From the NCBI GenBank assembly GCA_020356065.1, contig CP070632.1:135744-199743 (forward strand): a stretch of 64,000 nucleotides of DNA, given 5' to 3'. Below, piece after piece: positions 4,265 to 58,287 of this stretch (the first letter of the stretch is position 1; every line of letters starts with the position of its first letter). The notes under the pieces were generated by a model that had not been told where the DNA came from, searched no databases, and saw only the letters and a program-made list of their open reading frames with translations. Origin of the DNA: Nitrospiraceae bacterium. Its GTDB lineage: Bacteria > Nitrospirota > Thermodesulfovibrionia > UBA6902. Both the position numbers and the translations under genes were made by a program.

Positions 4265-4708
4265 CTACTGTATTGATACGCTGATTTTTACCCACTGTAT
4301 GAGAGAGTTCAGGTCTACAGCTCCTGACTGCCGGGCGACTTCCCGTCCGTTTTTGAAAATAATCATGGTAGGAATACTTCTAATGTTATACTGTGCGGCT
4401 ACACCCTGTTCTCTTTCCGTGTCAAGTTTTGCCACTCTTACGTATGGCTCAAGACGGGATGCTGCCTGCTCAAACACAGGCGCCATTATTTTGCACGGAC
4501 CACACCACGCCGCCCAGAAGTCTATAAGAACGGGTATGTGATCATGTGAGATGTGCTTATGAAAGTTAAATGCCGTCAGTTCAATCGGCACACCCTTGAA
4601 TATAGGCTGCTTGCATTTTCCACATACCGGATGGTCAGCAAGCTTCATCCTAGGCAGTCTGTTTATACTGCTGCACTGTGAACACACGATATGCAATATA
4701 TCAGTCAT
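4265..4708 (-). CDS. trxC: Thioredoxin 2 (TrxC-type, zinc-binding N-terminus)
   Basis: Cytoplasmic disulfide reductase of 147 residues. The N-terminus carries two zinc-ligand pairs (CSQC and CGKC), the hallmark of thioredoxin 2, followed by a full thioredoxin fold with the active site WCGPC at 68-72 and the cis-proline region SIPTMIIF. Length matches E. coli TrxC. It is divergently placed from the fmdB-type gene, so both may be reached from one short intergenic promoter region. Confidence 0.93.
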   Translation of the reverse strand: MTDILHIVCSQCSSINRLPRMKLADHPVCGKCKQPIFKGVPIELTAFNFHKHISHDHIPVLIDFWAAWCGPCKIMAPVFEQAASRLEPYVRVAKLDTEREQGVAAQYNIRSIPTMIIFKNGREVARQSGAVDLNSLIQWVKISVSIQ

Positions 4709-4817: not shown

Positions 4818-5036
4818 ATGCCTATTTATGAATACAGCTGTTCAGATTGTAACGAAATTTTTTCACTGCTTCAGAGTGTCTATCCTGCAGAACAAAGTAC
4901 TGCTTGTCCCAAGTGCGGAAGCTCAAAAGTGAAAAAGGTAATGTCTGCCTTTAGCTGCTCTTCAGGATCAGGCGGCAGTTCTGTCCCAGCCTCGAATTTT
5001 GGCGGAGGCGGTGGGTGAGGAATTTCATCATGCTGA
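4818..5036 (+). CDS. FmdB-family zinc-ribbon protein, probable selenoprotein (Sec67)
   Basis: The first 66 codons encode an FmdB-type zinc ribbon (MPIYEYSC start; ligands Cys8/Cys11 and Cys30/Cys33) with a Gly/Ser-rich tail. The strong AGGAGA site fixes the start. Codon 67 is TGA (5016-5018), but the frame continues Gly-Ile-Ser-Ser-Cys before a second TGA at 5034-5036. Exactly 20 nt after the first TGA is a perfect 8-bp hairpin with loop GGTCT and no T-run. This geometry closely matches the E. coli fdhF SECIS (GGUCU loop 18 nt after UGA). FmdB tails are commonly Gly/Cys-rich, so Sec67...Cys72 would be a redox pair. Inference: UGA is read as selenocysteine, giving a 72-residue protein. The fallback is a conventional 66-residue protein ending at 5018. 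Its role (regulator or metal chaperone) is unknown. Confidence 0.7.
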
Positions 5037-5051
5037 ACGGTCTGTTCAGCA
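5031..5051 (+). promoter_or_regulatory. Candidate bacterial SECIS hairpin
   Basis: Stem TGCTGAAC (5031-5038) pairs perfectly with GTTCAGCA (5044-5051) around the loop GGTCT. The loop begins 20 nt after the in-frame TGA, inside the 16-37 nt range accepted for bacterial SECIS elements, and has G at its first two positions. The downstream bases (TATGATATG) contain no T-run, which argues against an intrinsic terminator. Confidence 0.6.
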
Positions 5052-5151
5052 TATGATATGTTATCTCTTGCCGGAACCGCATGCATCGATTTATCATGCG
5101 TAGATTTCATTTCAGGCAAGCTATTTAACCTGACGTCTGTCCATGTAATAC

Positions 5152-58101: not shown

Positions 58102-58287
58102 TTAAACCCTGTCACAGGAACGGTGAGAAAGTTTTTCCCAGAAATTCATATCAAGCTCGTCTACATATTCATCAATTGAATATTTATTGCTGCATTCCAT
58201 GCAGCGCAGTGTAACGCCCCTTCAACCGATTTTCAATTCCAGTTTACCGCTACATTTCCTGCATTTCATGGATGATCTTGTACTCAT
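58102..58287 (-). CDS. Dual-CxxC small selenoprotein, UGA at codon 22
   Basis: A 62-codon frame with a strong GGAGG site 9 nt before the ATG at 58287. Two zinc-type pairs, CRKC (9-12) and CMEC (29-32), flank an in-frame TGA at 58222-58224 (codon 22); the frame then runs through NKYSIDEYVDELD...SHRSC to a TAA. I recall a family named dual CXXC motif small (seleno)protein, whose members carry Cys or Sec at this position just before an R-x-V-x-x-RC stretch (here U-RGVTLRC). A 7-bp hairpin with loop GGA begins 16 nt after the TGA, loop at 23 nt. Inference: UGA encodes Sec; 61-residue product. Function unknown, probably redox or metal. Confidence 0.75.
58189..58205 (-). promoter_or_regulatory. Candidate bacterial SECIS hairpin
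   Basis: On the minus strand GCTGCAT pairs with ATGCAGC around the loop GGA. The first loop G is 24 nt after the UGA, inside the 16-37 nt window of bacterial SECIS models, and G at the first loop position fits. It lies in coding sequence, as bacterial SECIS elements do. Confidence 0.5.

Follow-up and report, generated by a model that had tools for sequence, protein, structure and literature searches.

An FmdB-type zinc-ribbon protein of Nitrospirota with a probable selenocysteine in its C-terminal tail

The locus and its product

The window, that is, the whole stretch of 64,000 nucleotides of Nitrospirota DNA that was analysed, carries on its forward strand a short gene, here called Sec-FmdB, that opens at ATG 4818, with an aggag just upstream that resembles a ribosome-binding site. 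Standard ORF calling ends the frame at its first TGA. The sequence is as originally described: 66 codons are followed by a TGA, by in-frame codons for Gly-Ile-Ser-Ser-Cys and by a second TGA, the whole occupying positions 4818-5036. The features of the locus are as follows.

4818-5036, + strand: Sec-FmdB gene, second stop included; its probable product is a 72-residue zinc-ribbon selenoprotein, MPIYEY...GGGGG-U67-GISSC72
4818-5015, + strand: codons 1-66, the FmdB-type frame up to the first TGA
4818-4943, + strand: FmdB-type zinc ribbon, residues 1-42 (Zn_ribbon_8 PF09723 / TIGR02605), with Cys8, Cys11, Cys30 and Cys33
5016-5018, + strand: TGA codon 67, probably read as selenocysteine, from comparison with orthologues and Cys homologues
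5019-5033, + strand: conserved coding tail GISSC, codons GGA ATT TCA TCA TGC after the TGA
5034-5036, + strand: presumed true stop codon, TGA here and TAG or TAA in several orthologues
5030-5052, + strand: SECIS-like hairpin of 9 bp with the loop GGUCU, beginning within the last coding codons and extending past the stop

The product belongs to the FmdB (Zn_ribbon_8) family: its N-terminal ribbon contains two CxxC motifs, and it scores above the curated cut-offs in profile searches (59.6 bits for TIGR02605, cut-off 31.3; 58.2 bits for Zn_ribbon_8, cut-off 34.4). An AlphaFold2 model gives a small beta-ribbon of moderate confidence (block pLDDT about 67-85) and then a low-confidence tail. Sequence and model together support a predicted product made of an FmdB-type zinc ribbon and a flexible Gly/Ser-rich tail that ends in G-U-G-I-S-S-C. 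The selenocysteine (Sec) would sit outside the modelled domain, in a tail that is covered by neither TIGR02605 nor Zn_ribbon_8. Foldseek returned no match at E <= 0.001, the weak matches being zinc ribbons only (MCM, HypA, a small archaeal transcription-complex subunit and rubredoxin), and the PDB sequence matches were zinc fingers, with no informative relative of solved structure among them. No selenoprotein model appears among the NCBIfam families listed for 29 aligned members.

Clustering of the neighbourhoods revealed no constant partner of Sec-FmdB; depending on the lineage, the neighbours are PilZ, transketolase, or a response regulator together with ValS. In the window, a gene for a TrxC-type thioredoxin with a zinc-ribbon N-terminus (4265-4708, - strand) is divergent from Sec-FmdB. 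The same arrangement is found in two relatives of the same genus (L136 and L137) and is not conserved across families; the adjoining thioredoxin would fit a redox role. A second selenoprotein gene lies elsewhere in the window (58102-58287, - strand) and encodes a 61-residue member of NF041197, the dual-CXXC small selenoprotein family (53 bits, cut-off 40), with its TGA at 58222-58224; this codon, number 22, falls between the pair of CxxC motifs.

Conservation of the tail

One in-frame TGA is present in the FmdB orthologue of 39 of 61 genomes (the source genome and its relatives), the TGA-bearing orthologues of the relatives sharing 51-81% identity with the query. Among 296 sampled Nitrospirota genomes, such matches turn up in numerous families of the class. 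In several matches listed without a stop, the TGA is present after all, just outside the aligned segment, and the tails include U-RPSFC and U-GPSC, which are variants of a tail that mostly reads U-G[IV]SxC. Cys72 is kept in 28 of the 29 five-codon tails, in which position 69 is usually occupied by Ile or Val and the codon for Gly68 may be GGA, GGC, GGG or GGT. When sequences are compared in pairs across the four codons that follow the TGA, 49% of the codon differences are synonymous in the frame of the gene, compared with 10% and 3% in the other frames; these percentages are descriptive and do not amount to a probability, since the compared pairs are related sequences. The in-frame UGA is, in other words, followed by conserved coding sequence, and the pattern that had been named as speaking against a selenoprotein (close homologues that end with TAA or TAG at codon 66 and lack the hairpin) was not seen.

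The tail does vary between lineages. In one Nitrospirota family (f25, comprising L213, L214, L215, L224, L225 and L226), FmdB ends in GGG-U-G[STIV]-stop and has its own downstream hairpin, with no Cys after the Sec, so that a strict U-x4-C pair is not universal. One further candidate, L223, has a TGA that looks like a plain stop, and it was left out of the Sec count. Two Planctomycetota MAGs (L048:6001 and L100:6001) contain FmdB homologues in which the frame continues beyond a TGA with APQCGDGRCHYDE or GVPQCGSGRNR; a GGTC-looped hairpin also follows the TGA, and both genomes have selA. The two are possibly further C-terminal Sec-FmdB proteins.

An alignment of homologues at codon 67, which the original prediction had proposed, bears it out: the position is TGA in the orthologues and Cys in homologues from genomes without selA. 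In three Nitrospirota homologues the tail reads GGGG(G)-C-CGGGC-GCG, placing one Cys exactly in the Sec column and another in the Cys72 column, and further Cys homologues end in GGGGG-C-SSGMC and GGGG-C-GGGMC. The gene for SelA was found in none of the seven genomes tested of the Cys group, of which one (G130) was placed there by its match to the same form, its tail not having been read, and which are not all independent, compared with 36 of 42 Sec-FmdB genomes. The six Sec-FmdB genomes in which selA was not found are mostly incomplete assemblies. Conversely, selA is present in some genomes that have no Sec-FmdB match, and Sec use therefore does not require Sec-FmdB.

The hairpin downstream of the TGA

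The hairpin consists of a 5' arm ATGCTGAAC (5030-5038), the loop GGTCT (5039-5043) and a 3' arm GTTCAGCAT (5044-5052). The perfect stem and the GGTCT loop 20 nt after the TGA were correctly foreseen; the stem, taken to be 8 bp long, is actually 9 bp. As had also been noted, no T-run follows it. RNA folding gives -16.7 kcal/mol (z = -3.1). With a guanosine in its apical loop and a suitable distance downstream of the UGA, the structure has the properties of a SECIS hairpin, and an Rfam search returned no model matching it and no SECIS match. The window contains 3100 TGA triplets, both strands counted; four of them are followed at the same distance by a stem of at least 8 bp with a loop of 3-6 nt, and the TGA of Sec-FmdB is the only one with 9 bp and a GGTCT loop. 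Chance is ruled out as the explanation because TGA, tail and hairpin are conserved in relatives.

Of 31 sequences, 29 have the loop start at +20 from the TGA; the other two, with a tail shorter by one codon, have it at +17. When the Cys and stop codons are used to anchor the stem, 208 of 217 stem pairs are formed in the orthologues, compared with 190.6 +/- 1.9 when the 3' arms are permuted among the sequences, and none of 5000 permutations reaches 208, relatedness being ignored in this count. The anchored stem was used instead of one with a floating start, which gave false stems in three sequences. A slid-partner control on a MAFFT alignment points in the same direction as the permutation control, although pairing is understated there because MAFFT misplaces 4-nt loops. 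The compensatory changes can be read directly from the arms, where GCTGAAC/GTTCAGC is replaced by GCTGAAT/ATTCAGC, GCTGAGC/GCTCAGC, GTTGAAC/GTTCAAC or GCTAAAC/GTTTAGC, the last of these accompanying a TGA-to-TAA switch at the stop codon.

Selenocysteine machinery in the source genome

Does the host have the means to insert selenocysteine? The source genome is a single contig of 3.17 Mb, and its nearest match among the named genomes is a Thermodesulfovibrionia (Nitrospirota) MAG. It encodes SelA (630 bits), SelB (353) and SelD (329), each scoring higher than its curated cut-off, so the proposed check for these three genes came out in favor of the prediction. The selD gene has one in-frame TGA just before AAKLGPADL, which makes SelD a probable selenoprotein as well. 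Between selA and selB there is a transposase-like gene (L016:56-1273, - strand, corresponding to G000:C1 3057474-3058691).

As for selC, the 5' part of a tRNA-Sec gene, 52 nt long and with a UCA anticodon, lies at G000:C1 2032116-2032167 and is 90% identical to the intact gene of a relative, whose tRNA-Sec served as the blastn query. No complete gene was found; since the 5' half runs directly into a run of Ns, the 3' half cannot be seen, which is no evidence that it is missing. Because the Ns interrupt the gene, selC escapes automated tRNA searches: the Rfam tRNA-Sec search of the genome gave nothing above the cut-off (the best matches were other tRNAs), ARAGORN detected no tRNA-Sec near selA/B and selD, and a degenerate pattern search yielded background only. 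In the search of relatives, tRNA-Sec exceeded the cut-off in 22 of 31 genomes, and the 12 genes read from relatives are closely alike.

How is the UGA decoded?

The best explanation is that Sec-FmdB encodes a 72-residue FmdB-type selenoprotein in which UGA 67 is read as Sec under the direction of the hairpin. We hold this with high confidence, from the machinery, from the joint occurrence of TGA, U-G[IV]SxC tail and hairpin in orthologues, from the replacement by Cys, and from the other selenoprotein gene, of a known family, in the window; the central claim of the original prediction is thereby supported. SelB carrying Sec-tRNA(Sec) would bind the downstream hairpin (loop start 20 nt past UGA 67), the ribosome would then read UGA 67 as selenocysteine, and translation would end at the second stop, TGA 5034. 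The contact of SelB with the loop is proposed by analogy with E. coli.

Translation might instead stop after codon 66, as standard ORF calling has it, with the hairpin serving as a transcription terminator or an mRNA-stabilising structure and the later codons left untranslated. Hairpins just after stops are common in bacteria, but the T-run of a terminator is absent here, the codons after the TGA evolve like coding sequence, the spacing from TGA to hairpin is fixed and the loop bases are conserved, and Cys stands in place of the TGA in homologues from genomes that lack selA, all of which make an ordinary stop at this point very improbable. The coding character of the later codons would also be accounted for if the UGA were read through by ordinary suppression, or were a codon reassigned to an amino acid such as Trp or Gly. 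This is the sole point in favor of suppression or reassignment, which we regard as just as far-fetched, given that the second stop of Sec-FmdB is itself a TGA, that SelD uses an in-frame TGA in a genome equipped with the Sec machinery, that a SECIS-like hairpin follows, and that the aligned residue in homologues is Cys.

Possible function of the selenocysteine tail

Why would a small zinc-ribbon protein carry a selenocysteine at its end? FmdB zinc ribbons occur widely among bacteria, and no function has been established for them. Selenocysteine, the rare 21st amino acid, comes at a high cost and tends to be retained where a protein depends on its chemistry; a conserved Sec on a variable tail thus points to chemical activity of that tail, and probably also of the Cys that ordinary FmdB proteins have at the aligned position. 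This part of the protein would most likely be a selenol/thiol redox end or one that binds soft metals or electrophiles. As a redox center, Sec67 would be a reactive selenol on a flexible tail, paired with Cys72 for selenenylsulfide redox chemistry or thiol transfer. Homologues without Sec have a Cys-x4-Cys pair at the same place. The chances for and against such a role of Sec67 and Cys72 seem to us about evenly balanced.

The alternatives to the redox pair compete with this proposed function only, and not with the decoding of UGA 67 as Sec. Somewhat less probable than the redox pair, though still a serious alternative, is a tail that binds a soft metal or reactive selenium or sulfur species, or that scavenges electrophiles, without any cycling of a redox pair. 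FmdB proteins often end in low-complexity tails rich in Gly and Cys, and family f25 keeps the Sec without a later Cys, so the pair is not always needed; in most tails, however, a Cys is retained at a distance of four or five residues downstream of the Sec, which is what a selenenylsulfide pair would require. It is also conceivable, if improbable, that the tail senses selenium, the selenium supply setting the ratio of a 66- to a 72-residue form that act differently. Failed Sec insertion would cost only the last six residues and leave the zinc ribbon intact, so that selenium supply would balance two forms of a regulator-like zinc-ribbon protein; FmdB is named as a putative regulator, and PilZ or response-regulator genes are neighbours of Sec-FmdB in several lineages. 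Against this, the efficiency of Sec insertion varies with selenium supply for any selenoprotein. The broadest possibility, which is likewise speculative and improbable, is that Sec-FmdB represents a lineage-wide, selenium-dependent subfamily, possibly extending to Planctomycetota, whose C-terminal Sec tail would be a switchable reactive or regulatory end.

Whatever its role, the Sec tail offers a testable handle on an old and uncharacterised family. Gene callers normally stop at TGA, and Sec-FmdB has therefore likely been missed in many genomes.

Comparison with known systems

The original prediction knew of no FmdB proteins described as selenoproteins. Selenoproteins of the family were reported in 2008 in the Global Ocean Sampling (GOS) survey from two metagenome reads with a CxxU motif (PMC2398784), but the accessible text of that survey does not contain the C-terminal form. 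The 2026 inventory of prokaryotic selenoproteins has FmdB only as a GOS metagenome entry, with UxxU and no accession (PMC13188914). As far as the survey text describes them, the GOS proteins resemble Sec-FmdB in family, in-frame UGA and downstream SECIS-like element (PMC2398784). They differ in having CxxU or UxxU, whereas Sec-FmdB and its orthologues have a single Sec in a C-terminal tail of the form U-x(3,4)-C or U-Gx; Sec-FmdB itself has U-x4-C, and the CxxC pairs of its ribbon stay Cys. No paper describing the C-terminal form was found in the open-access literature. Different Sec positions in the same architecture are counted as distinct subfamilies in the inventory (PMC13188914), by which rule the C-terminal form would be new, and it appears to be a new subfamily, set apart from the GOS form by the latter's description in the accessible text.

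Other members of the FmdB family (TIGR02605, CxxC_CxxC_SSSS) share the N-terminal ribbon and a Gly/Ser-rich tail, in which the aligned position is a Cys in some of them. NF041197 (OS_HP3/DW) is likewise small, with two CxxC motifs and one Sec, but its Sec lies between the CxxC motifs; it did not match Sec-FmdB in NCBIfam scans at E values up to 10, and its only match in the genome is at the other locus.

The SECIS of E. coli fdhF is a hairpin downstream of the UGA with a GGUCU-like apical loop, and the Sec-FmdB hairpin is alike in its place and in its GGUCU loop. Unlike in fdhF, most of the Sec-FmdB stem is 3' untranslated, because the hairpin overlaps the end of the gene. Mammalian thioredoxin reductase, which ends in -Gly-Cys-Sec-Gly, likewise has a short, flexible tail at its C-terminus, on which a reactive Sec stands close to a Cys. 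The likeness is one of analogy only, since Sec-FmdB is without the flavoprotein domain and its Sec and Cys are differently spaced (U-x4-C).
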